From: Gracilaria domingensis
Taxonomy: Eukaryota > Rhodophyta > Florideophyceae > Gracilariales > Gracilariaceae
DNA: 64,000 nt
Direction: 5' to 3'
Assembly (NCBI GenBank): GCA_022539475.1
Contig: VCMS01000084.1
Coordinates: 1 to 64,000, forward strand
Numbering within the stretch: the first letter of the stretch is position 1; every line of letters begins with the position of its first letter. This document shows, piece by piece, positions 1,036-23,895 of this stretch. Under the pieces are notes generated by a model. The model was not told where the DNA came from. It made no database searches and worked only from the letters and a program-made list of their open reading frames with translations. The position numbers were made by a program, and so were the translations under genes.

Positions 1036-1440
1036 TGTGGTGCAATCCCACGAGTGGGCAAACAAGAGCCGCGTCGCGGAAAGCGCACCTACAGGGTGTT
1101 CGAAACCTGCTCTCTATAGGGGTAGATGCAGCACTAGAATCCTCTGATAGTGCCAGCGCGATGCCAGGTGTAAGTCCGGGTGGCCCCGATCTGAGCGTGC
1201 AGTCAGAGGTATAGGGGAAGAATCGGCGTAGGTATCCGGATGTTCCGCCGAGCCACTGCGAGTGGGGGTATCCAGCTCGAGGATAGGGGGCAACAAAGGA
1301 TCAGCAAAAGAGCCGCACTGCGGAGCACTGACTCGTGATAAACCGGAATAAGTCCCGTCTGTGTTCTCGTTTTGCTATTTAGCAGTCCAAAAATGATAGT
1401 TTCGGAATGCTTGTTAAATTGCACTTTGGTTAGTTTCCAT
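1036..1440 (-). repeat. Probable 5' LTR of gypsy-0, outer end undefined
   Basis: The inner edge is clear: minus-strand CCACA at 1036 followed by the primer site. The outer TG end is not identifiable because the second LTR lies outside the window. The sequence is not closely similar to the 974-bp gypsy-1 LTR. No convincing coding region is present. Confidence 0.4.
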
Positions 1441-3500
1441 TAGAAGGAAAAACTAGAGAAACTATGACTAATGAGTGATTCTGAGTTATGCTAAAGTATG
1501 CTATGTTTTTGATACTAGACATCTAAAACTAGCAAGTATGAAAGATGGCAGAACCGTACTTCCAGTCCTCCCCTTTTGCTAGTGCTCTAGGTGAGTGGGC
1601 CCATTCTGGTGGTCCACCAAAGGACCATATGGCCCAGAGAAAGGACCAGTCTGGACCGAACAAAGCCAGTATCCGAGAATACTACGGCTGGGACATTCAT
1701 TTGCTGCAGTATCCCCTGAGCACCACCACCGCAACCGCATATCCTCAAAACACCATGATAAAACCCAGAACTCATCTTTACAACTTCTTCATCGGCTGTT
1801 AGATGTAATCTCTTCCTTTGCACAGTCCACACACCTCAATCGCATCACCACAGAAAGCCGTAAACGGTCACAAGGTTAGTAGCCATACTCAAAACAACCA
1901 AGAAACGTCTCTTCGATACCTGCAACACTTACCTCTCCATCTCTTTCAGTGCCAATCACCGTCCACACACTTTCATCGCGGCACCGCATAGAAACACACA
2001 CTGAAATACAGTTAGTACCCATAACACACAAACAAACCTTTCAATGCGATATCTCCCTACCTTTTCAAATCCTCCAATTATCGTATTCAAACACACCTTC
2101 ACGTCCCTATTCAAGAATCAAGACTCCGCAAGAAGCAGCGAGGAGACACACAGTTAGCAATCAGATAACACACACGAACTTCTTGATTCATTCGTGTTAC
2201 ATACCTCTCCATGTCTTCCAGTCCGCTAATGCGACACATTCACCCTCCACTGCTTCACGATCCATGTTTTCTAGAGTTTTGACCCATGTTGAATAGGAAA
2301 GTGAACGTTCCCATTCCTATTCAACATGTATAAAAAATCTGGAAGCAGTAATTCGACACACAGTTAGTACATATACAACAAAGGTAAACTCTTTTCGTTA
2401 AGATATTTTTACATACCTCTCCATGTCTTCCAGTCCTGATAATGCGACACCTTCACGGTCTACCGCTCCACCATGTACCCTCCACGGCTCCCCTGTGCCA
2501 CAGTTTCCAATCCAATTCAATGGACGACCCAAAGTTCACTAAGCCAGAACTAAAACCAAACCCAGCTGTTAGTCATTAGAACCTCACTAATTAAGTTCTG
2601 CAAGCGTCTCCAGTAAGAATTGTAGTACATTTCTCACTCGAATCGCTTCATAGAGCGTAAGTAGCGAGGTACCTTACGAGCGCGCACGTGGGTCCCTAGA
2701 ACCTTTTCTCGCTCTCCGTAAATCGCTCGCTTCAAACGGGGTCATCCAGAACTGAATTCCATGACAACCGTAGATAGAGTGTCAACCGTACCAGTATGTC
2801 ACTCGCACGATCGGCATAATACTCTTTCGCTCGTTATTCGTACATTGCTCTTATCGAACTAGATGAGCAACAAATAAGATCGCAGTAATAGTCGAAACCG
2901 TTACGTGTTTCACGTACCTGTATGCTAGCATGATCTGGAAGATAATGTGTCGCAGAGAAGTGCCATGATCAGAACTCGCATCGCACTGGTCAGTTCCGTG
3001 CCATGAAACTTTCCTGACTTCTTCAGTGCCGCACTATCTACGTCTAGTGTAGAGTTCACGCCAGCCGCAAAATTTTGGGCTCAAAAATTTAGGAATGTTT
3101 TGAGTTTCTCATAATTCCTTCACTCCTCGACGTACCCATATCATATCGTGATGTACGTAAACCATCACGTGCATGGCGCCGATTCGACTTTCCCTATATT
3201 CTCCGCCACAAGGTACGGGAACAATTTCCTACAAGTTGCAACACTGCACCTTAGACCTCCGCTCCTCACCTCCAACGTTCCAACCAATCGCCTCCTCCCC
3301 CCCATCCCCCATCTCCCCGCCCTACTGCATCATGTACATATGTTGCTTCTGCCGCTGCGCCTGACACTGACGCGCCTCACACAGACTCTATCGCCTTCCT
3401 TGCGCAATATCAGAAATGATGCAGGCACCGGCATGACCCAAACCCTTTTCTCACTCCTGCTGCCCCCTGCGGTTCCCTCTTCCCCCCCGAACGAAACGTC
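1441..3500. other. Gene-free stretch with intron-like repeats
   Basis: No open frame here has recognisable protein character. The visible structure is the set of repeated GTTAGT...CAG blocks between 1875 and 2433, reported separately, and an AT-rich unstructured tail from 2600 to 3130. From about 3150 the sequence becomes pyrimidine-rich and leads into the transposase frame. Confidence 0.5.
1875..2433 (+). repeat. Three intron-like repeat blocks
   Basis: Segments 1875-1949 (75 nt), 2153-2221 (69 nt) and 2363-2433 (71 nt) each start with GTTAGT or GTTAGC and end with a pyrimidine tract and CAG. The second and third end in the same CATACCTCTCCATGTCTTCCAG-type tail, and each is followed by a similar TCC(GC/TG)TAATGCGACAC segment. 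They look like short spliceosomal introns with repeated exons, or a degenerate tandem repeat that mimics them. No long frame results when they are removed by eye. Confidence 0.4.
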
Positions 3501-6474
3501 GCCGACTCAGCAGTACCAAACCCCCTCTCTCTTCTCCCTCCAACCGCCCCTCCGATAATGTAGCACTCGCCACTGACGAACCGTATGAAGAACAGCAGCT
3601 CTCTCTCTCCGTACGTTCTTCTGACGCAGCACATCTAGCTACACCACAACCCCCATTCAATTCTCAGTCCTTGTCCGTAGGTTCCGGTCATGCCCTCTCT
3701 CCGCCCGCTTCAAGTGATGACATTCACAATCTCGTCACATACATTTCCTCCATCGCCACGAAACTTGGAAGGCGCTCCGCAGACGAGCTTATCAACATTC
3801 TCAGGCAGTCCAACTTTCCCCCCTCTCTTTTCCAAATCTCCATCACCTCGGCTTCTGAGTGTCTCAAACTACACTCCGAAATTTTTGAAGATACCGTGAG
3901 CTCCATCGGCCTCACCTCCACCACCATTCACGATAACGACCGTCAGTTCTCTGCCACCCTCTATTTCAAGGACCCCATTCAAGTCCTTCAACAACAACTT
4001 CGGCTAGCATCCCATGAGAACTCCTTCTTTCGCCCAATTCACCACGCCTCCCGCACAGGAACCGACGCATTCGCGTATCACATGGTCTCCAAACTGGGAC
4101 ATGACGTCGTTCCCGCTCTGAAAAAGCACATCGCATATTCTCCAAACCGAGGAGTCATCTGGCATGATCCCACCACTACTGGTATAGACTCCTTCATCGG
4201 CATGCTTCAAATCTACTCCGATAAGTCCTCCACTACGCTAAAAAGCTCCTCTGTCACATCATACCCCCTCCATATTACGTTTCTCAACTTCAAGGACTCT
4301 TTCCGCAGAAAATTTATCACACACCTCAACACTCTCGTCGGCTACATTCCCACTTCCTTTACATCCTTATCTCTCGATTCTTCCTCCACCGACACCGATT
4401 CTTTGGAAATTGGCCCCTTGTCGTCGAACATAACTCGCGTTGTGCGTATGGAGCTCGTCCAGAAGTCCTTGGAAACTATCCTCAAACTTCTGTACGACAT
4501 ATGCAAAAAAGGCTTCCCCTTCAGAGACGCCAAGGGAGTCCTTCGTCAGTGCCATCCCATCATCGCTAACTATAGCGCTGACATTCCCGAAGCAAAGGAC
4601 ATTCTCGCTGTCCTCCACGGCACGAAACCAAACAAACCCTGTCATAGATGCCTTATCCCTCGTTCACAACTCAACGTCTATCAAGCAATTCTCAACGAGC
4701 GAACTGTATCTTACCTCTGCAACGAGAAAGAAACACCAAGATCTACTTGCCGCCGCTGAACAGGCTCTACTCTCCCGCAGACCTCGAGTGGCAAGGACCC
4801 TGAAAAATGAAGCTGTTCAACTACTCCAAACCACCTCCTTATCCACTTACAAGTCCTTTGTCGAATGATTCCCTATGCTCAATGTCTCCGAGCTGCTCAC
4901 TGCTTACTCAATCTTCTCCTTCGAGCCCCTTCAAAACTTTCATCTCGGAATCTCCAAACTCATCAAACTCGCTTGAACTCCTCAAGTCCGATTCGCTTCA
5001 CACTTTTGTTGGTTCTCAGGGAAACCGGAGGCCTTTCACGACCGTTCGAACTTCTATTCTCAGCAACGCCAACTCCATTCTCGCAGCCATTCAGCGGTCC
5101 TATCCGCCATCCAGACTTCACATCAACTTCTCCACATCCGAAGAAGGAAAATCTCTCAACGGTTTCTTCACGACAGACGGCATCAGGGGTATGTTGGAAG
5201 CCAAGGACTACCGTTCCCTTGATATGGTCTTCTCTTTCATTGGCGCTTTCTTTGACCGCAGTTGTGGTGAGGAGTTCTCCGCCCCTATTAGGACCGTGTT
5301 CACATCCTACGTTGACCTCGTCAACAACGTCCTTCGCTACAATACAACTCCAGAATGGACGGCGCATCGCATAGATGCGTTGGAAACTATGATCAAGAAC
5401 TTCACGTTTCACACAGTCTCCATTCTCGGCCCGTACCAAGCCTCCAACTTTCGTACTCTTAAGTTCCACCTCCTTGACCACATCATTCCAGACAAACGGC
5501 GATACAGATGCCTGCACTTTGGCGATGCAGGCGTGTACGAACATGCTCATCTTCTCTTCAAGAACCACTACTGTCGAACTTCTGGAAGGCGAACTACAGC
5601 TCATAAGGAAAGAGTGAACGCCATTCAAGAGTCATAGGACTATTTGCAATCCCTTTCGGTCAGAAGTCACTTCTCTGTCTCCTCCAACTCTCGTAGCTCT
5701 TCCATCAACCGCTTTCCGGCCATGGTTCGCGACGGTAACTCCTTCTCACTCTTTGACATCATCACAGCTGACAAGTACCTACGATCGCATCCACATGTAT
5801 CTTCTTCGGCTCTGGCAGAACTTTTCTCGACAACCACACTGCGGTTCATCAACCAAATATCTTGCGACTTTCTCACCTCCTTCCGCACCCTTTGTGTAGA
5901 AACGTTTCAACAGCTGAAGAACGCCCACGACATCAAAATCATTGTCGTTAATTCTGCATACGTTCTTAGCGGCTTTTGCCCCTCTCTCGATGATTACGAT
6001 CGGGATCTTCGATGCATAAGACTGAGAAAGCCCGATGTACAACTATGTGAACGCATCTTCGCTACGACCTCCTTCGGAACTTCCAGGTTGCCTAAGTTCT
6101 TCACGGTTCTCGTGCACGGAACACCCCCTCCCAACTGTACGTTTTCCACAGCGTGGGTATGCAAAGTATATGCATTGATTCGCGTCAGGGACAAGACCTT
6201 AGACAACTCTGAATCGGAGCTCGCTTTCGTTCGTTTCTTCGAAGTTACAGAGCCCTTAGATAACGTTGATGAAACTCTGAACTGCATATCACGCCGTTTG
6301 GCCACCGACGACGAGCATGATCACACCGTGCATCCAAGTACGTCAAAGATGAAACCTCGTTCTGCTACGGTCTCTCCTTGCTTCGGGCTTATCCCGTTCT
6401 CCTCAAGCAAAGGCTCTATACACTTCATTCGCCAGAACTACCCTGCCCGTCCATTTTTCCCTCCCCTTCACTAG
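3500..6474 (+). pseudogene. Plavaka/CACTA-type transposase, copy 1 (decayed)
   Basis: The reading frame is recoverable in pieces: about 3500-4759, then about 4740-4868, then 4807-6474. Hallmarks of the fungal Plavaka family are visible: IYSDKSS...YPLHITFLNF at about 4215-4290, the HPIIANYSADIPEAKD...CHRC block at about 4550-4655 (cysteines of a zinc site), a TDGIRGMLEAKDYRSLDMVF core at 5173-5232, DAGVYEHAH near 5525, and a long conserved C-terminal domain to 6474. The enzyme would cut and paste the element in the nucleus. It is broken by frameshifts near 4745 and 4865 and by an in-frame TAG at 5635. No ATG is obvious at the 5' end; the frame stays open upstream of 3671. Its 3' end overlaps the convergent gene below by about 70 bp. 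The family call is from motif memory and the element ends were not found. Confidence 0.7.
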
Positions 6475-9094
6475 CAATTCCATCGTTTCTACATTAACAG
6501 ATTCTATCGTAACCTTCGAGCGCACATTCATCATACTCCTACTACGTAACATTCTTAACATAAACTGTTCATGTAATTTGATATTCTCTTCCTCGTCTTC
6601 CATCTCGTGCTCATCGTCCACACCTCCCCCGTTTCGTTCCCTATTTTGTTGCCAGACATTCGGATTACAATGGATCACATTATTATCTCTGATTTCATCG
6701 ATTGCTCTTATAGGAGAGTATAAGCAATCCCGTGGGTCACAATACTCAATATAGCAATCCAATACGGCTCCAAGATATTCCGTAATCTCTTCCATGAATA
6801 CAGCTTCTCGAACGGCTAGATATAGCTTCTTCTTAGACAGTATCCAGTATGCCATAGTTTCTAAACTGTCATCATTCCCATGGGGTGGATCTTGAGCCAT
6901 TGAGTCGTTCCTGAATTTCGTTCCAAACTTCTGCTCCATTTTCATTCGTACAGCCATCAGTATACTTTCCAACGCCTGTGCAACATACTTTCCGAAAAGG
7001 TTGGAGAACAACACCTGCATTTTACCCCCCCGCTCTCCTTCAAACTCTGTAGCTCGAACAAATGACGCGATCCAAGCGTCTAAACGCGCCAACTGCACTA
7101 TTCTGCCATCCACTGGGTCCTTGTCTCCCCCATTTCTCAAATTCTTTTGGTTCACATCGTAACCCACAAACTCCCGTAAGATCTGTAGGCTTAGAACGTT
7201 TCTAAACAGTAAGTCTTGCGGCCTTTTCTCTTCGCCACGCATTTTGAACCCGGAAAATAATATGTCCTCTCTTTTGGAGGTTCTCTATGTGGAGAGAATC
7301 TCACACCCTTTTGCATCTAGCGGCAGAAGATTCTCCAGTAGTTCCTTCGCTTGTTTTAGGTATATACTCCTCTCCCTTTCATGAGATGGTGTCTTCATCG
7401 ACATGTCATACCCCAGCTCCATCAACAACTTCTCCTTTGCATGGCGTTTTCGATCCCCCACCGCATCGCTCAAGAACTGCTTCCACCTCTTCCGTAAGCA
7501 CATGTGGCTGGTCAGCTATCTGATGCAGTCTTCTTCCATCTCCATCTCCCGGATGGATTTCCAACGAGGTTTCTTTACCTCTGTCTCCACGATTTGCATC
7601 AGCAAGTTATGACCCGTATCACGAATCGATGGAGTATACGCCCTCATCTCCATCGCGACCTCCATTGGACAGCGTGAAACAATCTCTTTCCCATCAACGA
7701 CCAGGACACTGTACTCAGTCTCAGGTCCGAGTGTCTTACTTCGATTCCCCCAGTTTCTCGCCGGTGAACTCATCTCGAAGCACAATTCCCTTGTCTCGTC
7801 TTTCGCGTATCGCAGTATGGACTCGTAAGCTGTCTTCGCTACCGCTACATACGCGTCGTTCACATCAATCTCGTATCTTCTCCTTCCCCTGTGCGAATCA
7901 CGCTCCCTCCATGTTGCTCCTCGCTTCAATGTCTTTCGAAGTGATTGTATTAGAACATCTTGCTCCTTCACCTTTAGCTCTAGTTCCGTCACGCTTTTTC
8001 TGTGCAATTCTTACGCTCATTTTCAGAATTTAATTATCCTCCGTTACTCGAAAGAGATCCCCTCTCAAGTCTCCAATCTTGTGCAACAACTCGTAGCGTG
8101 GCGTTAGGCTTTCATCTTCTTCACCTTCTTCGTTTACATCAGCAAGAGCACGAGATGGAAGCGTACGGGTAATTTTCCGGCCACCTGCCTCATTACGACC
8201 CCTTTCGTTCCATGTCTCTCTTGGTAGTTGTGACCCCACGTCTGTCCGTTCCCTACGCATTTCGCCAAAGAAAACCGAGGTGGAACCCTTCCTTATCATT
8301 TGGTTGAACCTATTCTGCGAATGGTACGACCGTACGAGGAGCAGGCTGTATCTCGTCGACTTCTTCCTCGTTCGTATAACGTTCGGGATGAATGGAACCG
8401 TTTCCATTCTGGAAACTCTTCCTCGTCGGTGCGGGCGCACGTACAGAGGACTGTTATATTATCGAATTCTTCCTTGTCACTAGCACGATCGGCATGAAGG
8501 GAATCGTTCCGATTTTTTATCTCCCTTCGCGATGTTGCGAGCGCACGTACAGTGGACTGTATATCATCGGCTTCTTCTTCGCTTCTACTACTTAGAGGTT
8601 GAATGGAATCGTTTGTAATGCGCCTCTTCCTACCAGGTGAGATTGCTCTTTCATGTCTGTCCAACTCTTCTTCGATGACATTGTTTCTCAAATTTCTTGT
8701 CCGTGTTCCTTCCGCTCTCGTATGTCTCTCGGCACCTTTCTACTCCACATTCGCATCATCGATTATTCTTGGCACTTCCTCTGCAGCCATGTGTCGAAAC
8801 CCGCCCTCCCACTGAGCTGTGATGTGGTAACACTACTTCGCTCTCTGTCACTTCCGTTGTGGTCGTACTAACACTCAGCTTCGGTTTCGGATTTGCTTTC
8901 GAAGCCCGCAGTGCTGATTTCGAACCAGACTTCTTTCCATTAAGCCCGACACGGGGACCTCATAGTCGACTACTTCTTCGGGTCGCAGCAGGCGGAGGGT
9001 TCTTCCGCTTAGCGACGCCAATACCATATCGCGGGATTGTTTGGGATCCCTTAGTTTCCCGGTCGTCCGCGTTGCTGGAGTTCTGTGGAGCCAT
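6403..9094 (-). pseudogene. Broken accessory protein gene, convergent with transposase
   Basis: I do not recognise the product. A plausible start is the ATG at 9094 (MAPQNSSNADDRETKGSQ...). A basic, serine-rich N-terminal region follows, which suggests a nuclear protein, then degenerate tandem repeats (8325-8640). From 8007 down to 6403 one frame stays open for about 535 codons apart from two TAG stops at 7516 and 7285. This part contains a coiled-coil-like segment (LELKVKEQDVLIQSLRKTL, near 7980), a conserved-looking middle (YVAVAKTAYESILRYAKDE) and an acidic stretch (DDEHEMEDEEENIKLHEQF). At least one frameshift lies between 8030 and 8007 and more lie upstream. Its tail overlaps the transposase tail (6403-6474), so the two are likely parts of one transposon. 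Transposase-partner or cargo are both possible. Confidence 0.45.
8325..8640 (-). repeat. Degenerate tandem repeat of about 110 bp inside the accessory gene
   Basis: Three imperfect units each carry a GCGCACGTACAG(A/T)GGACTGT-like core followed by a CTTCTTCCT(T/C)G-like run and a GGAATCGTTCCG-like segment. They would encode a repeated basic/serine region in the minus-strand gene. The repeat probably explains some of the frame loss in this part. Confidence 0.5.
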
Positions 9095-9632
9095 GATTGC
9101 GCTTCAAAATCGCATGAAAAGAAGGGATTATGTTCGGATTATGGAGTGGGGAAACGGAAGCTTCTGGAGTTCTGCTCGTAGTGTGGGGTGAAAAAGCGGA
9201 AGGGGGGAAGCTTGTGAACCCTTTGCAGCAGGTGGTCGAGACCTTCAGTGGTTCTTGAGCCCTAAGTGAGCTGGTCCATTCCTGTGGCAGACATTCATAC
9301 CAATTTTTCACATTTCCCATGGCCGTATTTTTTATTGGCTATATTCTATGTGCCAGGTCCGTCTGTCGGGTCCCTTCATGATGAAGGTCCTCTGTTCCTT
9401 GGTCCAACCTCCCGGGTGCGAGATATTAATTCTGAGATGTTGCTTTTGAGGTGGTAGCTCTGACCGCTGTGGAGTATTCTTAGTAGCTCCTTGCTTAGCA
9501 CGACAATGTGTCCTTGTGCTACGTTGTCGATTACTGCAACAATAGGTTTACTGGAATGATAAATGCATTAAATAAATAACGCAGTAGTTATGAAATACAC
9601 TACAACAGTTTGTACTACGTCAAACTATAAAG

Positions 9633-9662
9633 CATGGGAGAGTTACAAATACCTCTCCCATG
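9633..9662. repeat. 10-bp perfect hairpin at the end of the SET frame
   Basis: CATGGGAGAG (9633-9642) and CTCTCCCATG (9653-9662) form a perfect stem with a 10-nt loop that contains the TAA stop of the SET frame. Confidence 0.6.
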
Positions 9663-10112
9663 GATAGCTGGGTCCATAGTCTACGTACAGTTTTTCGTGT
9701 TCATGAATATCTCTTTTAGCCGTCACCAACAGTAGTCTATAGCTTGCGAGTGTACCCAATGTGGTAGCTTGATGCTCGGAGGGCTATCGAATAATAACGT
9801 TTAGTAAGCGGGCTTGGTAAGGCTCAATCTCGGCCAAATCCTTCTCTTCGTCCCCATCCCGGTACGAAGAATCATTGATGTAGCCCAGTATACAGAAAGG
9901 AGCGAGTACTACCCAGGCAATGGCAGTATTGATTTCAGAATCATAGTGAGGAAGCGTGCTGTACATCTGCCCTTTCAGCTTCACTTCCATGCAATACCTC
10001 CTGAAACGAGAAACGGTGGCAACGAGCATTCCGCTTCCGTATTTGTTCTGTTTTGAATTGCGTCGGCTTATGTCATGATATACCAATGTCCATAGAAGTA
10101 CCCGACAATCTA
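9643..10112 (-). pseudogene. SET-domain continuation of the DNA methyltransferase gene
   Basis: Directly behind the stop of the methyltransferase frame the minus strand continues with SET-like sequence. The junction reads GDGVFSSRSFSEG, then TAG (10112-10110), then IVGYFYG, and after a one-base slip TLVYHDISRRNSKQ. Further on come CILGYINDSSY (compare the GRYINHSC block) and, after a second in-frame TAG at 9786-9784, AKRDIHEHEKLYVDYG, which matches the AxRDIxxGEELxxDYG end of SET lysine methyltransferases. The frame ends with TAA at 9645-9643. So the intact gene would carry a SET domain C-terminal to the DNA methyltransferase. As read it is broken by two TAG codons and one frameshift. The conserved Asn and Cys of NHSC are replaced (NDSS), so histone-methylating activity is uncertain even if the frame were restored. 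Confidence 0.6.
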
Positions 10113-12713
10113 TCCTTCCGAGAACGATCTACTACTGAACACTCCATCTCCAAATATGGGGTGTTTGATGTTTGATCTCTTCCTGTACAACCATATACCT
10201 GCTGCTTCAGCGGCGAGCGAAGTCTGTACATCCATCGTCTCCAATGTGCCTTGGAGATTCGGAGGCCACTCGTGCACCGGTTTCTCCTTGTGCTGCGCGA
10301 TGAGACTCGGTTCTCTGCAAAAAGTTGCAATGTAGGAATTGATATGAAACGGGAAATATTGGTATGACGGGAATCCTTTCGGTGCGATCCATATACGCGA
10401 AATTCTTTGCTTCCCTTCCGGGAACTTTGTCTGTACTAAATACGAGGTTTGAACGACCTCACTACTGACATTTATTCTTGCGTTGAACTCGTTACCCCAA
10501 ACCTTTCTCACATACATCACCACAGCATTGTGTTCAGCATGACCGAAGCACTGTTCATCCCTCTCACATCCAATGAAGCGTCGGAGCTCTTCCATGTCCA
10601 TGCACGCCAAGGCACTGGAAAATGTTCCTCTATAGGGATCAACCACAACGTCCCCGGGATTTGAGAACCTGGCAATGAGTTCCTTTAGCAGTGACCTCGG
10701 TTTCTGTTCGGGGCGAATCTGAACCAAGTGTATTTTGGAACGCTTCTTTACCCTCCAACGGAGTCCTTCACCAGCCTCCAGATGCGAAACCTGATCGATA
10801 ATGGAGTAATGTCCGGGGTACTGCGTGGGAACGTAGTTGAAATTTTTGTAGTTCACCATCTCCTTCTGCTCCTCGTACGCGTCTCCATTCCGGACTTCGT
10901 GCACAGCATACTCGGTTGCAGAGAACAACCGTGTTGTGTTCCTTCCGGGGTTCTTCAAAGTGTGCGTACGAGAGAGAATGAATTGCATCGGTGTGGGGTC
11001 GACTAAGAACGAAGCACTTTGCCTCCCGACTGCATCCTCCGATTTGTGCTCACGTAGAATCTCCTCCCAGTCCGCGAACTGTTCGATAGTACAGAACACT
11101 ATAAATTGACCGCCAGGGCGAAGCATTGCGGCCATCATTTCTGCAGTATTAACCATATCTTCGTCGAGAAGCTCATCATGCTTACTGTCACGTATACCAT
11201 AAGGTGGGTTTGTGAGTACGAGTTGAACATTGCCCTCTAGGGAATTATCGGAAGGGAACAGTGTACCATGAGCCTCCACTAACTCTTCATAACCAACGCA
11301 ATGCATAGAGAACTGTTGCTCCATGTTCTCTTTGACCACACCGAGAGCCTTCGTCGTTCTTACATCGCCAAAGTCGTGAGGTGGAAGAAAACCATCAGGA
11401 ACATTAGAAAGGGGGTGCGCTCCACCGTCATCATCATCCGTGTCGTCTATGAAAATGACATCCACCGGACCCAGGTCTGCACCGGATGTTTTACCGGATG
11501 TTTTACCCACCGCCCTAGCCATTGGCCTGGAGGAAATGGTTCTCTGTGCCGTAAACGTATCCTCAATCTTCACTGTGACCGTGTTGCTTCCTTCCTGACG
11601 TCCTGACAGAGTGGCCCGGGATGGCTGCTGGGAAGGTCTCAGGTTCAGCTGGACAAAAGCGGTACGAAGAGTAGCCAAATACTCATCGGAGAAAGCATCA
11701 AAGCGAGATGGAAACCATGTCCGAAGTTTCCTTCGAAAGCCTTCCAGCAGTTCCCACTTGGTAGTAGCGGACATTTTGTACAGAAATTTGTTTAAGACAA
11801 CCTTGTTCAAATCAGACAGGAACTCTTTTGACAAATCCCTTAGTTTGGTATCGATATCATCCGAGAGGGTGTGAACCCAAGGCACAGTAGCGTTGACCTC
11901 TGTGGTTGGCTTCACTTCGATCTCCAATGTTTTGAACACCGATGCTAGGCTGTATCCGGAAGAACCTGACTCAATTGCGCTGAAAGAAAGCGTCGCTTTC
12001 TCCATGGCAAGAAACGGTAACAGCATTTGTTCTGCGTCACGAAATCCAAGACTGGAAGCAAAGGAATCCCATCCTAGACATACCATTTGCACAGCATAAC
12101 CCATCAGCCTTATGTGCGCTTGGTTTGACATGACGAAACCATCCACATACGGCACATGTCTCCGAGAACCAGTTGCAGTCCTCGCCTTCTTCGCGACTGG
12201 GAGTCGCCTCTCTATAGTGATACGCTTCACTAGGGATAGATAGAAAAACTGCTGAAAACGAGTAGCAGGCTCAATCCGGAAGGTAGTTTTCTTCGTCTGC
12301 TTGGATCCGGGACCATGCTCTTTGAATAAGTCATTCCAGAACACACGCTCCATAAAAGAATTCGCGCCATCCACATTCTTATCCAAACTCCATTCGAAAA
12401 GATCCCTCACCACACGATCCTGACTCCAGTCATCAACGTCAATGATACGGACATACTTGTAGACCCGACTTATGAGCCTAACATCGGTACTTATCTTCAC
12501 TAGCTCCTGCGGCGTATAGTTTGCGTACGTGCTCTTCGTAACATCCGTGAGAAATTCCCGTGCACAAGCCAGACTGGCACGGTTTGCGACAACGTACTCA
12601 ACCAGAGCCGTGTATCCAACCTGACGAGGGGAACCAATGCCACCTCGAGACGCCGCAAACGAGTCTCTCAGCTCGAGAAGTATGCTGAACAAACGAAGGA
12701 ACCGCGTCACCAT
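10110..12713 (-). CDS. Beta-class N6/N4 DNA methyltransferase domain protein, 867 aa
   Basis: The open frame from ATG 12713 is long and uninterrupted. Residues 1-400 are of unknown function, rich in aromatic and charged residues. A hydrophobic-then-acidic patch VDVIFIDDTDDDD (417-429) looks like a SUMO-interacting motif. NPPYG at 502-506 is the catalytic motif IV of amino-methylating DNA methyltransferases. DPYRGTFSSALA at 692-703 followed by RRFIGCE corresponds to the AdoMet-binding DPFxGSGTT...RRFIGIE block. The order IV before I is that of the beta class. The predicted reaction is transfer of methyl from AdoMet to adenine N6 or cytosine N4; the target base cannot be read. The frame runs at its end into a SET-like domain (9643-10112). 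It lies next to transposon genes and has no introns. A domesticated host gene or a transposon cargo are both possible. Confidence 0.65.
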   Translation of the reverse strand: MVTRFLRLFSILLELRDSFAASRGGIGSPRQVGYTALVEYVVANRASLACAREFLTDVTKSTYANYTPQELVKISTDVRLISRVYKYVRIIDVDDWSQDRVVRDLFEWSLDKNVDGANSFMERVFWNDLFKEHGPGSKQTKKTTFRIEPATRFQQFFYLSLVKRITIERRLPVAKKARTATGSRRHVPYVDGFVMSNQAHIRLMGYAVQMVCLGWDSFASSLGFRDAEQMLLPFLAMEKATLSFSAIESGSSGYSLASVFKTLEIEVKPTTEVNATVPWVHTLSDDIDTKLRDLSKEFLSDLNKVVLNKFLYKMSATTKWELLEGFRRKLRTWFPSRFDAFSDEYLATLRTAFVQLNLRPSQQPSRATLSGRQEGSNTVTVKIEDTFTAQRTISSRPMARAVGKTSGKTSGADLGPVDVIFIDDTDDDDGGAHPLSNVPDGFLPPHDFGDVRTTKALGVVKENMEQQFSMHCVGYEELVEAHGTLFPSDNSLEGNVQLVLTNPPYGIRDSKHDELLDEDMVNTAEMMAAMLRPGGQFIVFCTIEQFADWEEILREHKSEDAVGRQSASFLVDPTPMQFILSRTHTLKNPGRNTTRLFSATEYAVHEVRNGDAYEEQKEMVNYKNFNYVPTQYPGHYSIIDQVSHLEAGEGLRWRVKKRSKIHLVQIRPEQKPRSLLKELIARFSNPGDVVVDPYRGTFSSALACMDMEELRRFIGCERDEQCFGHAEHNAVVMYVRKVWGNEFNARINVSSEVVQTSYLVQTKFPEGKQRISRIWIAPKGFPSYQYFPFHINSYIATFCREPSLIAQHKEKPVHEWPPNLQGTLETMDVQTSLAAEAAGIWLYRKRSNIKHPIFGDGVFSSRSFSEG

Positions 12714-13030
12714 AATATCCTTTCACCGGAGCTAGACTCCGTAGATGCCACGGAACATGCGCTAGTCGACATCGCTCTGCTGTTAAGACCACAGGAGGGT
12801 CTGTTTTCGATGGGCGCCATGTAACTCTCGCAAGAACTCGCGAAAGCGGAATAGACGGTGGCGATGAAACTCGCTGGAGGAGTTTTCGAAAGAGTAGTAG
12901 ACGGCGGTGATGAACCGTTATTCTAAATTCGTATTTGAGCGGGTGTTAGTCGTACACAGGAGGGTGTGAACAGGGTTCCGAGAGCGGGTGTAGTACGCAG
13001 ACTTGTGTAGAATTACCTAGTAGTGACCCC

Positions 13031-13106
13031 CCTGGTGGCCGGATGTGACGTGTTTAGACCGCAGTTTGGACCGCGGTCTGAACACTTCGCATCCGGCCAC
13101 CACAGG
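13031..13106. repeat. Nested inverted repeat
   Basis: The outer arms GGTGGCCGGATG and CATCCGGCCACC enclose inner arms GTGTTTAGACCGC (13050-13062) and GCGGTCTGAACAC (13073-13085) with one mismatch. The whole can fold into one long hairpin with an internal bulge. It could be a foldback or MITE remnant. Confidence 0.7.
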
Positions 13107-13610
13107 AGGGTACGTCTGTCTCTTGCAGATGCTAGTTTTTGGCGAGGGTCGTCCAGAAATTGGCAAGGGTCGTCCAGTAAATTTTTTGAAAAAATATCGA
13201 GATCAATTATTTCAAAATCTGCAGATAATTGCTTGGGTCGTCCAGAATCGCTGTGCAGTAAATACTGGTGGGTTTTCCACTCGTGCTAGTTCTTTAGTCG
13301 AGGGCTACCTGAACTGTATTTCGCGAAGTCTAGGTTCAGTTTCCATTAAGGTGCACATTACACGGTACCTTCTGCGGAATGATACCCTGCAACGCATGGA
13401 ATACTAGTGCTAGTACAGATGATGCCCATTATGAAATCATACCGTTTTATTCGTATCTATTCTTCTATCGACCGCTTTTGCTAACCACTACTTCGCTATA
13501 TTACATGTACCATTTCCCCATGATGGATCGGGTGTAGGCGCAATCTGCGGCAGATGCCGCAGAGGGCACCTGCACCAAATTGCGGTAACGGTAGACCACA
13601 TACGCACTCC

Positions 13611-13687
13611 GAGAGGATGAGGCGCGAAGCGCCTCATCCTCTCCGTTCGTCATGTAGGGAACCATGCCCAGATGCATGGTTCCCTAC
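13611..13687. repeat. Double hairpin
   Basis: A perfect 15-bp stem with a GAA loop (13611-13625 / 13629-13643) is followed after 10 nt by a perfect 14-bp stem with a 6-nt loop (13654-13667 / 13674-13687). Similar pairs of adjacent hairpins, unrelated in sequence, occur at 55153, 59303 and 63831. Confidence 0.8.
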
Positions 13688-13741
13688 TTGAGGAACCTGC
13701 ATCTGCAACTCGTGAGCTACGTACGCATCAAAAGTCATTTA

Positions 13742-13880
13742 CCTGTATACGCAAGCGGAAAGTATCCATAAGTTAGTCAATGATCCGTTGGATACATTTG
13801 AAATGCGATGGAACGTACCATTGATAAAGCAAAACAGAAACGTTGCGCCAGAAAAGTCGAGGGACCTAGTAACTCGCAAA
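13742..13880 (+). repeat. Direct repeat, unit 1 of 2
   Basis: About 140 bp starting CCTGTATACGCAAGCGGAAA and ending GACCTAGTAACTCGCAAA recurs at 14112-14251 with roughly ten differences by eye. The two copies lie 370 bp apart in direct orientation. They may be LTR-like or subterminal repeats of a non-coding element. Confidence 0.7.
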
Positions 13881-14111
13881 CGGAAGAAGAAGCAGGAAAG
13901 GGATCGGTTAGATTACCAGCCACCATCATCGTAAAGCGCGAAAAGGTGTCGAAGCGAGAACTCACAACCAAGGACACCAAGAATGCCCAGCAGCAAACAT
14001 ACCGCAAGATGCGATAAACGAGAGAGCAGCCTATGTCCAACCAAGTACAGAATCGCCTATCCCGAACAGCCAGAGATCGATCTTGAGAGACGAAATGAAA
14101 TTGGTCGTTTT

Positions 14112-14251
14112 CCTGTATAAGCAAGCAGAAAGTATCCATAAGTTAGTCAATGCTCCGTTGGATACAGTTGAAATGCGATAGAACGTACCATTGATAAGAG
14201 CAAAACAGAAACGTTGCGCTAGAAAAGTCGAGGGACCTAGTAACTCGCAAA
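14112..14251 (+). repeat. Direct repeat, unit 2 of 2
   Basis: Second copy of the 140-bp repeat at 13742. The 230 bp between the copies contains no recognisable gene. Confidence 0.7.
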
Positions 14252-14511
14252 AGTAACCCAAAGCTTTTTCCTGCCGTTTACATGTCGCAGAGCGCGAAGA
14301 GACGTGGTGAGGATTGGTTAGTTTAGAACAAAGATACGTAGAAGGAAATGGAAGCACGTACGAAAAGACTGCACGGAAAGACTGCAGGAATACATCCGTG
14401 AGATACGGATGCTGTCCGCTTTATGGAGGCGTCCGACGAGGGCGGAGAAAGAGAATAGGTACGCTTCATGTCCGCTTAATGGAATCCATTCTCAGCACGC
14501 TACTTCGTAAT

Positions 14512-14574
14512 CCGTCGTACTTTTTTCCGCCTCGCACTTCGTAGCGAGTGCGAGGGCGGAAAAACGTACGACGG
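14512..14574. repeat. Long imperfect palindrome
   Basis: CCGTCGTAC at 14512-14520 pairs with GTACGACGG at 14566-14574. Inside, TTTTTCCGCC...TCGCACT pairs with AGTGCGAGGGCGGAAAAA, giving an almost complete stem over 63 nt with small bulges. Confidence 0.7.
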
Positions 14575-14963
14575 AGCGGAGTAGAACGCGAGGATGGCAC
14601 GGATACGACGGTAACAAAAGATCGGACGTCGGACGGGCGGGGGCGGCGGCGGAGGGAAGAGATTTATTTTTCTGTGCGAGATTGGACAAGTGTACAGCGT
14701 ACAACGTTGGGAAACCAGGTTTATAACCAGTGGTAGATAATACGAGAAGTACACCCTTGTGTTGAGGTCGACGTGTACTACGTTCTTTTTGAACGAAAGC
14801 ACGTGATTTAACTCAAAATATATTCTCCGTTCTGAGCAACACGTCGATATTGACTGTCGCTCGACCTCCTTCTCCCTTCGGACGCCTTCCTTGCAGTCTT
14901 TGTCGTCGTTTCTCGTTCATTTCTTCTTCCCATGGTCTACTACTGTACACATAAGAAGCGTGG

Positions 14964-17480
14964 GTGCCCTTCGTTACTCGCCGAGGAGTCTTATCTCTTC
15001 AACAGCATGTCAACCATTGCCCGTTTCGTCTGAAAGCAGCGCTGGAAGACGACAATAGCCGGGCCATTCGGAGAAGCAAGCGTCTCAAGCTTTCCGCGCC
15101 GCGCCCGCATCTTCCGAAACGGTCACTGCCCTTGTCGCTTCCGAGCCTCCAGTGTCCGAGGACATCGTCGACCCACTCCGTGCGCCCTCCCATTCCGGAC
15201 ACTTCGCATTGTGTTTCTCCTTCCCGGGTCCGCGTCATTAGAGCGAGAACACGGAAGCAGTTCCGCCAGTGCCTTCTGAGGAGGCCTTGGTGATTTGCAT
15301 ATGGATTATCTCACGGTTTGTCTGGCTTCAGTAGCTTCCAACCTTGGTCATCGTGAGGCGGACGAGCTATTGGGCTACTTCGGGACCGCGATTCTCGCAA
15401 AAGCGATTCAACGAGACATAACAAGTTCAAGCGCTGTACAGAATGAAGAACGCCATTTTCGAACGATACGCCTCAAAGGACGGTTTCAATCGCAGAACTG
15501 TCTCGCCAGAAGGATGTAAGTTCAGCGCCACCTCTACACGAGAGACCCGTTCAGACACTTGTGAAACAGCTCAGTTGGCTAACAACGAAACACATTCTTC
15601 CACCTATACCTCAGACCACTCCACGAAAATATTCACCCATGTCCGGCTCTCTCGCAAGAGACGCCACTCAAAACTTAAGGAATGGTCATGGGCTCTTTGG
15701 ATAGTAGAATAGTGTGGTACTCCAAGAATAAGTTACAGTGAATCTTTCGTAGGTCTTCTGCAGGTATACACGATAAGTCTTCAACAACTCTAAAGCAAAC
15801 ATCGGTTACCGCTATCCTTTCACCTCATATTTCTCACTTCTCCGAGAGCTTCGCCGTAAGTGTATCCGTGATGACCTCACAGTAGTGGCATACTTCCTAC
15901 CACACTGATCGAGGTTTCCGCATCTGAAGCAGACGCAATGCCATTTGTTTCTAGCAAGTCTCTACGCGAGTCCAGGATGCAATCCTTCAAGAATCTCTTC
16001 GTCAAGTCTGGAGCCCATTCTAAATCTCACGCAGAAGGTTTTCAGTTCATCGGGGAAGACAAACTAAGTCGAGTGTGCATCCTCTGCTTGCAAGTTATTG
16101 TGCGGATATTCTGAGGCTAAGGACATTCTGTCATTTTCATGGGACAAAACGGAAAGCCGTGTCATAGATGCAAAGCCCTCGCTCATCTTTATGCAGTCCT
16201 ATTCCACTATTCAACGGACGTTCTCAAAAGCACACGAAAAGCATCCGAAAGACTACACAGCTATCTTGCAACATGCACAAAAGACGAGGCGGAAAGACGT
16301 CCACGTCGTGCGAGGGAGAGGAGATTCAAGGGATACTCTGATGCGTTCAATTCCATATCTCTCATTCCTTCGTTCCTCGAAACTTCGTAAGCTTGGAATG
16401 ATCCGGGATTGTCTCCATACAGTCTGTTCTCATTCGAACCATTACAACTTGCATCTCGGCATCTCAAAGTTGATAAAAGGCCACAATCGAGAGACTGCAG
16501 TCAGACACCTGTGCACCACAATAGGAACATCTGCATCGCGTTCATTTCGAACGATACGCACCAACTCCTCAACCATGCAAACGCAATTCTAGCTGCATAG
16601 AACGCGATTCTCTGCAAAGGTTTACATATCGATTTCTCCACGCAGGAGAAAGGCAAATCTTTGAATGGTATCTTCACGAAAGACGGTCTCCGTGGAATGC
16701 TGGAGGCCAAAAACTACAAAGCACTTGACATGGTCTTTCCCTTCATAGGAGCATTCTTTGACATATGCTGTGGAGAACAGGACGTTGCCCCATCACAACC
16801 GTTTTCTCTCAGTATCGGACTTGCTTCGACTTATTCAGATACAATCGTGACCCGTATTGGACTGAAAGCTGTCTCCTGTGTCTTAGTTCGGAGATTGAAG
16901 CTTCAAGCGTTCCGCAACAAAGACTCTGGCGGATTTTCATCCTCCAGACTGGAACTCTGAAGTTTCATCTCTCGATCATCTCGTGGACGATATTCGCCGT
17001 CTGGGAAGTATCAAGTACTACGACGCAGGCATATACGAACATGCACACTGCTATTTAAGAGACACTACAAAAGACGTCCAGAAGAAAGCAACGGCTGTGG
17101 AGGAGACTATTCGCTCCATTGAGCACGGACATGTTAGAAAGCAATGGAATGGCAATACTCTTACCAGCGTATCCAGGTTTACCAGGAACTTCCAACAGCT
17201 TCCTCGGTTTGCAATGAGAGGGCGTTTCTTTCACTTTACGAGCTCTTCAACATTGTGTTTCAAGTATGTCCAGTTCAAAACATGGACTGCTGTTAGAGAA
17301 ATGTTCTCAAGTACGGAACAAGGTGATTCTTGATCAGATTGGTGAACAGGCCCTTCCTCCTTTCCTCAGTCTCGTGAAAGAAACACTGGATGAGCACTCT
17401 ATTACATACTTCCCAGAAAAGACAAGGATAACTCTGGTGATTCGGCCTCGTGAAAGGCGGTTTCGTTCCGACTCTTAAAC
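14964..17480 (+). pseudogene. Plavaka/CACTA-type transposase, copy 2 (heavily decayed)
   Basis: Fragments in changing frames are homologous to copy 1. LTVCLASVASNLGHREADEL (about 15308) matches LVTYISSIATKLGRRSADEL. A CHRC-like remnant with SEAKDILSF lies near 16105. NLHLGISKLIKGHN (about 16448) matches the same block of copy 1. TKDGLRGMLEAKNYKALDMVF (16676-16738) matches TTDGIRGMLEAKDYRSLDMVF. DAGIYEHAH lies near 17026. An N-terminal segment GVLSLQQHVNHC at 14985-15020 may be the remains of a zinc finger. Many frameshifts and stops mean it cannot encode an active enzyme. It is clearly diverged from copy 1, so the two are old relatives and not a recent duplication. The minus strand of 17475-17827 has open frames that I do not recognise. 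Confidence 0.6.
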
Positions 17481-19122: not shown

Positions 19123-20241
19123 ATGAAGCCAACTCGTGTTCGAAAGCGTACGCAAAGCGTGACTCCTCGCACTCGGCGGAGCACTCGATTATTGCAAGGT
19201 GAAATGCGGGTTTCTCTGCAGATGGATATTGAGGATGAAGGAAAGGTGATAGTCGGGGAAGCGTTGTTGCATGGAATTGGAAGTGTTCTACGCCGCGAGT
19301 TGCTCGGGAAGCAATTGGACCCAGGTCTTGTGATGGTTCATAATATTCTCATCAGTCGAAGCGGTCAGACGTTCTACCCTTACCGGGCGGAGGGCCTGGA
19401 TCTTCCACAATATATCCAGGATCTCCGGACGGCCGCTCCTTGGGATGGGAAAATGATGGAACCGGTGGCAGCCAGCATTCCGGCGTCGAAGCGAGGAACG
19501 GTGAGCGCTATGAGTGAGGTGATGACGCCGACAAGCCGCACGGAGCCAATTCGAAGTTCATCAACACCGAGAGGTAGCGCATCAGTAGCACCTCCACGGG
19601 CAGGTCCGTCGTCTGTTACGAAGCGGTCTATGAAGACGAGAGCATCCCCAGCTACGAAGCGGACAGATCAAACAAAGTCTACCTCCGTTACGAAGCCCAC
19701 TGCGTCGAAAAGGGCTTCTCCTGCGATGAATCAAACCGTCGACACAAGGGGATCTTCTGCGTCGAAACAGACGGTTCAGCAGGGGACGGCTGTGCAAGAG
19801 GAGGAAGATGAGATCATAAAAGGTCCCCTTCCAGACGCGGATGCGCAATCCGCACAAGGAGCTGGTCCATCTGTACCCCAAACTGCACCAGAAACTGCGG
19901 AGCAGCAGGACGATGACGTTGTGCTTCTGTCCGCAAGAATGGCACGTTCAAGTGTTTCTGGCGAGCGGTCTGGAACACAAGGGACACCTACTCGGAGCAA
20001 GACGTACAGACGAATTCGTCAGAAGGTACCAAAGGTGAACCTCAATTCCAATTTCGTGTACAACAAACTGTGGCAGTGGAGAGAAGAAGTGGATTCTGCT
20101 ATTGGAGACCTGTTGCAGAAGATGGATGCGTTTGTTATCTATCCCGGCGATAAAAGTTGCGAAATTGTGGATAACTTCCGGTTTTCACTTCGACAGTCCA
20201 TTGTACGTGAAGTTAGGGAACAGGTCATTTCGATAAAGTAA
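19123..20241 (+). CDS. Hypothetical basic protein, 372 aa
   Basis: The product is not recognised. The N-terminus is strongly basic (MKPTRVRKRTQSVTPRTRRS), as in nuclear or DNA-binding proteins. Residues about 25-115 form a compact region that looks folded (VIVGEALLHGIGSVLRREL...YPYRAEGLDLPQYIQDL). Residues about 120-290 are low-complexity Ser/Thr/Lys/Pro with repeated TKR/TKP motifs, then an acidic patch. Residues about 300-372 again look folded (VYNKLWQWREEVDSAIGDLLQKMDAFVIYPGD...). No signal peptide or membrane segment is present. The ATG is the first after a TATA-like box and the frame ends with TAA. It has the same orientation as the palindromic element to its left but no evident link to it. 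Confidence 0.55.
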   Translation: MKPTRVRKRTQSVTPRTRRSTRLLQGEMRVSLQMDIEDEGKVIVGEALLHGIGSVLRRELLGKQLDPGLVMVHNILISRSGQTFYPYRAEGLDLPQYIQDLRTAAPWDGKMMEPVAASIPASKRGTVSAMSEVMTPTSRTEPIRSSSTPRGSASVAPPRAGPSSVTKRSMKTRASPATKRTDQTKSTSVTKPTASKRASPAMNQTVDTRGSSASKQTVQQGTAVQEEEDEIIKGPLPDADAQSAQGAGPSVPQTAPETAEQQDDDVVLLSARMARSSVSGERSGTQGTPTRSKTYRRIRQKVPKVNLNSNFVYNKLWQWREEVDSAIGDLLQKMDAFVIYPGDKSCEIVDNFRFSLRQSIVREVREQVISIK

Positions 20242-20300
20242 CTTTTATGTTTAACTATCTCTAAAAGGTTTACAACACCGAAAAGTCATGTGTTCTAACC

Positions 20301-21317
20301 TCAAAGCTGGGGGAATGGGGAGGGGGGTAACTTTTCCTTAACAACCTTGACGTAGTTTGTATGAAAAGGAGCGGGGTCACCGCCTACAATGTTTCTTTCT
20401 TGGTGGGAAAAGTCGTAGAAGTACGCGTTCCTAAACTGAAAGTCGGAGAAAGAAGTAGGGAAGCCAACGAGAGTTTTCCCATATGCAAGAAGTCGCCCAA
20501 CGGTCTCTTCCAGGTTGAAAGTAGTACCTGTCTTAAGCGAAACTATCTTCAACAGCTCTTTCATTATTGTGAGCACAACCGTACTGCACTCCGTAGCGAC
20601 TACGTCCATAGGAATGAAACCTCTTGAGGCCCCGACGATGTTGAACGCTGATAGCCACACGAGCTTCTCATAATAGCTTACGAGAAATGTGTCTTCGTCG
20701 ACAACCCCGCAAGTGAGACCCATAGACCTAAACCTGTCTGCAACGTTGGAGGCCCACTTTCCTGTTGCGACAGTGAGACCATCCGGACTTTGAGGAGTGA
20801 CACCATCCTGCGGAGCTGCGTTTCTTGAGGGGACACCAACGTATAGGACAACTTTTGAACATGTGTCCACACCGAGCTTCGAAACCAATGGTATGATGTC
20901 TCCATTCTGGAAGAAAACGAGATTCTCTCTGAGCGAATAAGGGCAAGCCTGAATTACGGTCTCCAGGGTGTTCGTTCTTCCACAAACTAGTATCGGTACA
21001 TCAGAAAGATGAGAGGTAGCAGCCATGCTGCAGAATTCGTGTGCGGAAATGACCGTATCTTCTTCGTTCGCCAGCATGGTACCTATACGCCCCCTTCCAA
21101 CAATAACGGCCCGAGTCCTTCGGGCGGGAGATGAGGCCTGAGGGACGTCAGAGTATCTGGGACTCGGAGGCGGAGTGGGAGGCATGTCGGACTGGGAGTT
21201 CATTGCAAGTGTTCGAATGTTTTTGTGTGACGATAGAAATGGAAGATGGGGCGGAGAACTGCTGGGGTAAAGAGTGATACTTAAGTACAAACGGTTGGAA
21301 GCGCAGAACGGGAACAT
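20301..21317 (-). CDS. Ketopantoate reductase-like (ApbA/PanE-type) protein, up to 338 aa
   Basis: The N-terminal Rossmann motif AVIVGRGRIG (GxGxxG, about residues 69-78) is followed by a region with ILVCGRTNTLETVI and YVGVPSRNA. The C-terminal helical half contains YYEKLVWLSAFNIVGA, matching the lysine-bearing ApbA C-terminal signature (KWxKLxxNxxxN). The family reduces 2-dehydropantoate to pantoate with NADPH in the pantothenate/CoA pathway; several eukaryotic relatives have unknown substrates. Two starts are possible: ATG 21317, which adds 38 residues rich in Ser, Pro and His, or ATG 21203 (MNSQSDMPPTPPPSP). I favour 21203 because the family fold starts soon after, but a targeting leader cannot be excluded. 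The gene is single-exon and ends with TGA. Confidence 0.6.
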   Translation of the reverse strand: MFPFCASNRLYLSITLYPSSSPPHLPFLSSHKNIRTLAMNSQSDMPPTPPPSPRYSDVPQASSPARRTRAVIVGRGRIGTMLANEEDTVISAHEFCSMAATSHLSDVPILVCGRTNTLETVIQACPYSLRENLVFFQNGDIIPLVSKLGVDTCSKVVLYVGVPSRNAAPQDGVTPQSPDGLTVATGKWASNVADRFRSMGLTCGVVDEDTFLVSYYEKLVWLSAFNIVGASRGFIPMDVVATECSTVVLTIMKELLKIVSLKTGTTFNLEETVGRLLAYGKTLVGFPTSFSDFQFRNAYFYDFSHQERNIVGGDPAPFHTNYVKVVKEKLPPSPFPQL

Positions 21318-21602
21318 GGTTCACTTTGTGAAAGTGAGCGAAATGTATGATATGTGATTGTACTGAATGAATGATAGGGCTTGTATGAGACGACAAGCCA
21401 CAAAGTGTGATGATGTTTTATGAAAGGTAGGTGGAAGAGTAGAAAGTGTGCAATGAATGAAACTGATTTCGAACCTGAGTTGTAAAGTAGTTGTAAAGTA
21501 CGAGTTACGGGGAGCTTGAATACAGGATGAAAGGAGCCATTTTGGCTTCATAAATGACGTGAACGGGTTCTATAGCTTCACTTGGATTGCCATAATTAAA
21601 AG

Positions 21603-21920
21603 GATGGAGTTGGATTGCGCCCGAATACGTCTATAAAGGTCGTAGAAGCACTTATGAACGAAGGAGTTGTAGACATGTTATTGTTGATGACGGTGGAGCC
21701 AGGGTTTGGAGGACAGGCGTTTATGGAGGGTGTTCTTGATAAGGTGCGACATGCAAGGAAGTTGTACCCAAGAATAGGGATACAGGTGGATGGAGGTATT
21801 GGACTGAGTACTGTGAAAGGAGTAGTGAAGGCCGGTGCAAACATTTCAGTTGCAGGATCTGCCATCTTTGGCTCGAGTAACCCAGCTCATGTCATAGCTG
21901 GTTTTCGAAAGGTTGGTTAG
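21603..21920 (+). pseudogene. Ribulose-phosphate 3-epimerase, C-terminal fragment
   Basis: The frame reads GVGLRPNTSIKVVEAL, then VDMLLLMTVEPGFGGQAFM, IQVDGGI and SVAGSAIFGS, ending at TAG 21918. This is the C-terminal half of the TIM-barrel enzyme that interconverts ribulose-5-phosphate and xylulose-5-phosphate. The phosphate-binding GFGGQ and the VDGG aspartate are present. The N-terminal half with the other catalytic residues and metal ligands is missing. An in-frame TAA lies at 21597 and an AG at 21601-21602 could be a splice acceptor. No matching upstream coding sequence is visible before the reductase gene on the other strand. It is therefore a captured or truncated fragment, or the last exon of a gene with a distant 5' part. 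Confidence 0.75.
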
Positions 21921-23483: not shown

Positions 23484-23587
23484 AGCCGTTTTGGGCGAGG
23501 CGGGTATACGAGAAGGGGGAGGGTTGTCCACCTGACTTCTACAAAATGACGTTGGCGGAGACGGAGAGGGAGGATGCGAACGCGTGA

Positions 23588-23895
23588 TGGGCGAGAAATG
23601 GGTAAAGAGTGGGGGTGGTGTGGACTGGGAAGAAGTGATGGGATGATTGAGGTGGGATGAGTTGCAATTGGCATTGCAACAAAAAAAAAATGGAAACGCA
23701 AACTAGCACGAATGCAGTTTTGAGAGAGGGTCGCGGAAAAGAGTGAATGGTGTGGTGCGGCGAAGTAGAACCTCTACAAAAACTAGGCGACCCAAGAACT
23801 AAACTGCGCGAAATGGAATTTAATATTCCAAAATTTCTTAATTTTTTGAGTGCCAGCCTCTGCTACCCCCTCGCGCGCCCCAAATAGCCCCAAAA
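23588..23895. other. Gene-free junction left of gypsy-1
   Basis: There is no coding region. The 3' LTR of gypsy-1 is expected here but nothing resembles the 974-bp LTR at 30294-31267. An A-run at 23681-23690 is the only notable feature. Confidence 0.5.

Follow-up and report, generated by a model that had tools for sequence, protein, structure and literature searches.

The question raised by this locus is whether a red alga encodes a protein in which a DNA amino-methyltransferase runs directly into a SET domain and, if so, whether the gene belongs to the host. The window, i.e. the whole stretch of DNA analysed, comprises 64,000 nucleotides of Gracilaria domingensis (C84:1-64000, contig VCMS01000084.1), in which the original prediction placed such a gene on the minus strand. 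The gene is almost certainly a methylase-SET fusion carried by a Plavaka/CACTA-type transposon. The 77.9-Mb genome was screened with profiles, and the curated cut-offs are 26.7 bits for PF01555 (methylase), 22.4 bits for PF00856 (SET) and 26.3 bits for PF18759 (Plavaka-type transposase). Genome-wide counts for these three families, for the element ends and for an open reading frame (ORF) of the element named ORF1 are counts of matches listed and hence lower bounds. Ten of the twelve phycobilisome matches are situated on contig C680, as expected for a red algal plastid.

The gene occupies two features of the window:

10110..12713, minus strand: methylase ORF of 867 residues, with an N-terminal part (about residues 1-470) of no assigned function followed by PF01555; the stop falls within the first part of the SET domain.

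9649..10298, minus strand: SET domain remnant in two frames, with two stops and one frame change (tblastn with the C-terminus of the intact relative L009).

The ORF has exactly the extent first claimed for it, and its identity as a DNA amino-methyltransferase is borne out by the genome-wide profile search, in which PF01555 matches C84:10545-11228 on the minus strand with 58.2 bits. The SET-like sequence said to lie past the stop, at 9643-10112, indeed aligns to the intact SET domain of L009. The C-terminus of L009 is 87% identical to 10298-10089 (frame -3) and 88% identical to 10089-9649 (frame -2), with an E-value of 3e-108 as against 0.27 for the runner-up match anywhere in the window. As had been stated, this segment is broken: stops interrupt it at 10110-10112 (in frame) and near 9784, and between them the frame changes near 10089. 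It is spread over two frames rather than three. The intact relatives start 36 (L009) and 39 (L010) residues further upstream than the window ORF. Over 865 codons, the window copy and L009 differ by 0.049 at nonsynonymous sites (dN) and 0.054 at synonymous sites (dS), which is the pattern of decaying copies; the methylase-SET copy in the window is decaying.

Intact copies with both domains in one frame, the check set beforehand, were found in the same genome. The window protein gives 62 scored matches there, some of which are pieces of one copy, and these include two groups, A and B; relative to the window protein, subfamily A is mostly 75-92% identical, subfamily B about 62-64% and the more distant subfamily C 32%. 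One intact fusion from each was scanned, and each is a single ORF of the same layout: L009 (subfamily A, contig C157; 1056 residues; PF01555 3.2e-14, PF00856 8.7e-5), L010 (subfamily B; 1054 residues; 1.3e-14, 2.3e-6) and L035 (subfamily C; 1031 residues; 7.5e-15, 1.4e-7). An intact subfamily C protein of 1031 residues is encoded at C171:17025-20120. Their PF01555 scores of 53.8, 55.2 and 55.9 bits are all over the cut-off, and their PF00856 scores of 23.3, 28.4 and 32.3 bits also exceed it, the subfamily A copy barely. Eleven further places show an identical frame of 1050-1170 residues in both domain listings (C47, C164, C171, C237, C257, C264, C465:32469, C597 and three on C382), which together with C157 and C12 makes at least 13 copies with a fusion frame of 1050 residues or more. 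Of the 22 methylase loci fetched for SET and motif checks (L009-L028, L035 and L036), 21 show SET homology after the methylase; the exception is L025 (C268), whose methylase gene is cut by another insertion. Homologues that always stop before the SET domain, which had been named as the refuting outcome, are therefore not what the genome contains; homologues read through in one frame. The fusion of a predicted methylase and a predicted SET domain is established.

PF01555 and PF00856 each match at least 150 places in the genome. Among the PF00856 matches listed, the first eight, at E 2e-11 or better, are presumably host genes, and the remaining 142 score 30.7-38.0 bits. A candidate single-copy host methylase at C6 (L036) was rejected; it shares 48% identity with subfamily C and likewise has a SET domain. 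We also note a further diverged methylase-SET group with frames of 1169-1170 residues, three copies of which are located on one contig (C382:10484-12090 plus, 35738-37141 minus and 110684-112090 plus). The locus L021 (C505) is a twin of window positions 6453-16287, 99.2% identical over 9.9 kb; because this identity extends beyond a break at 13113, L021 is probably an uncollapsed alternative haplotype or a duplication.

In beta-class methylases, the catalytic DPPY-type motif IV precedes motif I, which binds S-adenosylmethionine. The same order is observed in the alignment of the algal proteins, where TDPPY/F precedes D-x-[YF]-x-GTF, with Phe in place of the second Gly of motif I. TDPPY or TDPPF is found in 18 of the 22 loci, TNPPY in L021, and the pattern is unmatched in three. 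The NPPYG motif noticed at first is genuine in the window, and NPPY is shared by its twin L021, but it does not represent the state of the family. The closest solved structures are those of DpnA (1.5e-8), CcrM (1e-6) and MboIIA (1.3e-3), which are N6-adenine enzymes, and the phage family phrog_67 matches the methylase at 1.5e-25 (subfamily B) and 2.9e-21 (subfamily C). These share the methylase domain with the algal protein but are without SET. Adenine-specific NCBIfam models match far below their cut-offs. The DPPY/F motif and the nearest structures suggest that the methylase is a predicted N6-adenine enzyme. The AlphaFold2 model of the window methylase domain taken alone has a mean pLDDT (predicted local distance difference test) of 32.6 and is without use.

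A prokaryotic source of the methylase was considered and is unsupported by the searches. No relative was found among the genome contigs searched; two viral contigs match 57-61 residues at 36-39%; and the phage search returned 133 records, all below 60% identity, the 15 rows listed being 23.5-27.1% identical.

In the SET domain, G-x-G-V-F is retained, as are the NH-motif Asn and the final tyrosine, the last of these in the C-terminal catalytic tyrosine motif E-L-x-x-D-Y (ELYVDYG, EIYVDYG and ELYFNYG). The acidic stretch resembling a SUMO-interaction motif, on which a chromatin role had partly been based, recurs in L009 (VIVIDD) and L010 (VIVILDSD), and nothing in subfamily C clearly corresponds to it.

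The surroundings of the gene reveal to what it belongs. The remaining features of the window are the following:

3671..6474, plus strand: Plavaka-type transposase broken into three open pieces and oriented convergently to the methylase-SET gene; PF18759 in one piece.

6403..9093, minus strand: broken ORF2 remnant with approximate limits, set from the sequence; at 6747-8128 its identity to the ORF2 region of L010 is about 70%, and L009 is matched by the full stretch.

13033..13102, no strand: palindromic spacer upstream of methylase-SET, an inverted self-match of 70 bp at 82.9% in the twin L021.

1356..1400, plus strand: probable terminus of the window element on its transposase side, CGTCTGTGTT...TTGCTA...CAGTCCAAAAAT, resembling the terminus at C12:65379; a single copy of the subfamily.

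13113..13943, plus strand: start of a second element, of the same kind as the first, which it interrupts, with the terminus-like CGTCTGTCTCTTGCAGATGCTAG at 13113; shared with L018 beside a different flank (96.5% over 835 bp); the end of the second element was not located.

The PF18759 match covers 3671-4759 (E 3.7e-19, 69.5 bits), and the other two pieces of the transposase are without a Pfam match. Window positions 3379-6252 are 73.6% identical to the region of an element on contig C12 that holds the intact transposase, an open frame of 1110 residues with a PF18759 score of 85.7 bits. Plavaka transposases have C(2)C and H(3-4)H motifs between their catalytic residues; in the C12 protein CHRC is visible, and H(3-4)H was not placed with confidence. 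PF18759 matches at least 123 places in the genome. Among the 150 PF01555 matches listed, 31 are followed, 4.7-8.0 kb downstream, by a Plavaka place in convergent orientation, none has one downstream on the same strand, and three have one upstream on either strand. Along the direction of the methylase-SET gene, the order is divergent ORF1, palindromic spacer, methylase-SET, ORF2 and convergent transposase.

The limits of the element were obtained from C12, where homology with C399 stops on the transposase side at CGTCTGTGTTTCCGGG in both contigs and an inverted match ends at C12:85355; these two ends give the C12 element a length of about 20.0 kb. A breakpoint at C12:84717, taken at one stage as the element end, was replaced by C12:85355. 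Each 150-bp end of the C12 element recurs at no fewer than 40 places. Ten same-contig end pairs, 13.2-23.1 kb apart, were chosen from a larger number (C469, for instance, was left out), and all ten have the termini CGTCTG...CAGACG (CGTCTGTGTTTCCGGGATGC...GCGTTCCGGAAACACAGACG). Identical 2-bp flanks, as expected of a target duplication, are present in six of them (C277, C266, C96, C202, C25 and C120), for which the chance of at least six matches in ten, at 1/16 each, is about 1e-5 by hand arithmetic. Five of the ten (C12, C140, C277, C266 and C233) enclose a listed methylase, two of these five with the duplication. C233 and C12 have a common outer flank on one side, and end pairs without the duplication may join the ends of two elements.

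As judged from this gene order and these termini, the methylase-SET gene does not belong to the host's own chromatin genes but travels as a passenger with a DNA transposon of Plavaka/CACTA type that is present in many copies. The copy of this large element in the window is dead and interrupted. The original prediction was correct about the fusion, and saw neither the multicopy transposon setting nor the decay of the window copy.

Other repeats accompany the element in the window. Positions 16574-16777 resemble the transposase region of the C12 element at about 70%, the 3.7 kb at 20217-23949 form a repeat that shares 97% identity with the insertion interrupting the L025 methylase gene, and retrotransposon-polyprotein-like ORFs (integrase and reverse transcriptase-like, by eye) occur at 24000-30000, 33556-37821 and 48080-51441.

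ORF1 is found at no fewer than 147 places across B, A and C-like copies, and its A and B forms differ by dN 0.30 and dS 1.57. By eye, ORF1 (C25:320572-324270 minus = L032, L014; L060; L061) contains a ParB-like DGxHRxxA, and ORF1 of subfamilies A and B shows a pattern, HTD...GDVFHAG...R, like that of 2-oxoglutarate (2OG)-Fe dioxygenases; the one subfamily C copy is without the second His of this pattern. When ORF1 was examined as a ParB plus 2OG dioxygenase protein, Pfam returned nothing with E up to 10, no relevant solved structure emerged, and PHROGs gave weak, irrelevant matches only. The window ORF at 19123-20241 on the plus strand, which is almost identical to the beginning of L060, is an ORF1 fragment.

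That the methylase-SET protein has been under purifying selection in the long term is shown by codon comparison of subfamilies A and B. Over 1039 codons dN is 0.249 and dS 2.6, which gives a dN/dS of about 0.1 that is only rough because dS is saturated; for the SET domain the values are 0.172 and 1.48. The fusion has been retained across subfamilies that are only about 32% identical. Among 13 recent B copies, the ratio of nonsynonymous to synonymous polymorphism (pN/pS) amounts to 0.76 for the N-terminal part, 0.70 for the methylase and 0.85 for the middle, where one, two and two stop variants occur, respectively; the SET domain has four. This pattern is usual for a transposon gene, on which selection acts through the lineage that keeps transposing as the majority of copies decay, and it does not establish joint action of methylase and SET.

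The methylation background of the host is informative for one family. PF00145, the cytosine-C5 DNA methyltransferase family, has no match in the genome in the six-frame search without introns, the control being positive in 10 of 14 genomes. PF05063 and PF12851 likewise gave no match, but their controls were silent too and the result is hence uninformative. PF00385 occurs at 150 places or more. Cytosine-methylation changes have been reported in Gracilaria and Gracilariopsis (PMC9861306, available in part), a report that sits uneasily with the missing PF00145 if the present alga is related to those.

What would such a gene do for a transposon? The domain architecture by itself suggests that DNA marking and histone marking are linked, and self-marking would be the most economical reason for a transposon to keep the gene. 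A complete element encodes the transposase, ORF2, the divergent large ORF1 and the methylase-SET protein. The methylase half of this protein would write a DNA mark, predicted to be N6-methyladenine (6mA), and the SET half a lysine mark, both on the element's own chromatin; the marks would most likely keep the element accessible for expression and transposition, by analogy with TET/JBP of fungal transposons. That a transposon-borne fusion acts on the chromatin of its own element, most likely against silencing, is on the whole probable. The anti-silencing mechanism taken separately is our first choice among mechanisms, which we hold tentatively.

Several findings weigh against this reading. In the SET domain the NH motif (Asn-His), part of the cofactor pocket, reads GYINDA/S; Asp replaces His while Asn is kept, and the catalytic activity of the domain is uncertain because of this replacement. 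The best solved relative of the domain is KMT2A, a weak match at E 0.005. In the recent B copies, SET is without constraint (pN/pS 1.07). For the methylase domain the A-B comparison gives dN 0.157 with dS beyond correction, and hence no ratio. The target duplication is absent in four of the ten chosen elements (C140, C233, C293 and C12). Among the 150 PF01555 matches listed, 76 are followed at 365-445 bp by a listed SET in the same orientation, a count that is uninformative; the missing half of the pairings is not evidence of absence, because only matches listed were counted and the SET domains of A and B score low. Furthermore, the present evidence does not separate anti-silencing from self-restraint or control of transposition.

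Self-restraint, in which the protein would deposit marks that hold back its own or competing elements and limit damage to the host, has precedents. In bdelloid rotifers, a captured amino-methylase and SET-type methylases of histone H3 lysine 9 silence transposons, according to the available part of PMC8885841, and SET genes are known in other transposons (PMC12730594, PMC4067079, both likewise in part). The rotifer enzyme, however, is a host gene, whereas the algal gene is carried and selected with the transposon, and we regard restraint as unlikely.

It is also quite unlikely that the methylase marks the DNA of the element for control of transposition, through timing or end recognition as in the Dam-IS10 system, while SET only binds. 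The resemblance of the methylase to Dam-type adenine enzymes, the weaker constraint on SET than on the methylase in recent B copies and the replaced His of the NH motif are in keeping with such a role, and Dam control of IS10 is cited in the part of PMC3627910 available. Opposed to it are an A-B dN of SET close to that of the methylase (0.172 vs 0.157) and a SET domain with the final tyrosine kept in all three main subfamilies.

A functionless hitch-hiking fragment would account for the near-equal dN and dS of the window copy and L009 and for the stops in many copies, but frames are intact in several subfamilies and the A-B dN is low relative to dS; by this last comparison the explanation is largely refuted and very improbable. 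An assembly or frame artefact, to which the frame closed at 10110 might point, is refuted by single intact fusion frames on different contigs and has next to no probability.

The preferred reading, a transposon-borne fusion acting on its own element, can be placed among known systems. In the red alga Chondrus crispus, giant En/Spm (CACTA) families are 16-20 kb long with 4-5 ORFs (Kojima et al. 2013, cited in PMC6431247, available in part). The CACTA-like elements described here resemble them, with 13.2-23.1 kb in the ten chosen and 20.0 kb and four gene blocks in C12, so that the element type is probably already known; the likeness is one of size and ORF number, and on the accessible text the Chondrus elements may either have or lack the fusion. 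Plavaka is defined by target duplications of 2 or 3 bp, within which the 2 bp of six elements falls, and by termini TGT..ACA (PlavakaA) or CATCA..TGATG (PlavakaB) in the available part of PMC12730594. With termini CGTCTG..CAGACG, the algal element is Plavaka-like in its transposase and is not filed as a fungal Plavaka family.

Fungal transposons, including Plavaka, carry TET/JBP according to the same partial source (PMC12730594) and share with the algal element a Plavaka-like transposase, an epigenetic enzyme as passenger and 2-bp target duplications. Their passenger is an eraser and not a writer, and their termini differ as given above. SET genes on DNA transposons are described for HarbingerS and MuDR of Phytophthora (cited in PMC12730594) and for Phytophthora Helentrons (PMC4067079); unlike the algal gene, the Helentron SET is a separate ORF, and the accessible portions of these papers mention no DNA-methylase fusion for any of the three. 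Mariner elements of giant algal viruses also encode methyltransferases (PMC3627910), but with a Mariner transposase and C5 or Methyltransf_26 enzymes, and no SET is mentioned in the part available. The bdelloid N4CMT is a bacterial-type N6_N4 methylase that makes N4-methylcytosine (PMC8885841, in part). As in the algal protein, a eukaryotic chromatin domain is C-terminal to the methylase in a host without C5 methylases, in contrast to which N4CMT is a host gene, its chromodomain is a reader rather than a writer-type SET, and its mark is on cytosine. The open-licence PubMed Central papers searched yielded no description of a transposon with a methylase-SET fusion; Repbase Reports lay outside the search.

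Transposons with erasers (TET/JBP), SET genes or methyltransferases are already known. If true, one protein that writes DNA and histone marks on its own element would be a different strategy, and one that is testable because many copies have intact frames. A wider version, in which the element would be a portable epigenetic toolkit with a one-protein writer of 6mA and histone marks in a host without C5 methylases and with ORF1 adding a ParB-like and a 2OG-dioxygenase-like part, possibly an eraser, is rather unlikely, the ORF1 share being at motif level only. In an alga with no detectable C5 methylase, the finding bears on the origin of amino-methylated DNA in eukaryotes and on the coupling of bacterial methylases to chromatin domains, as in rotifers but in a mobile element.

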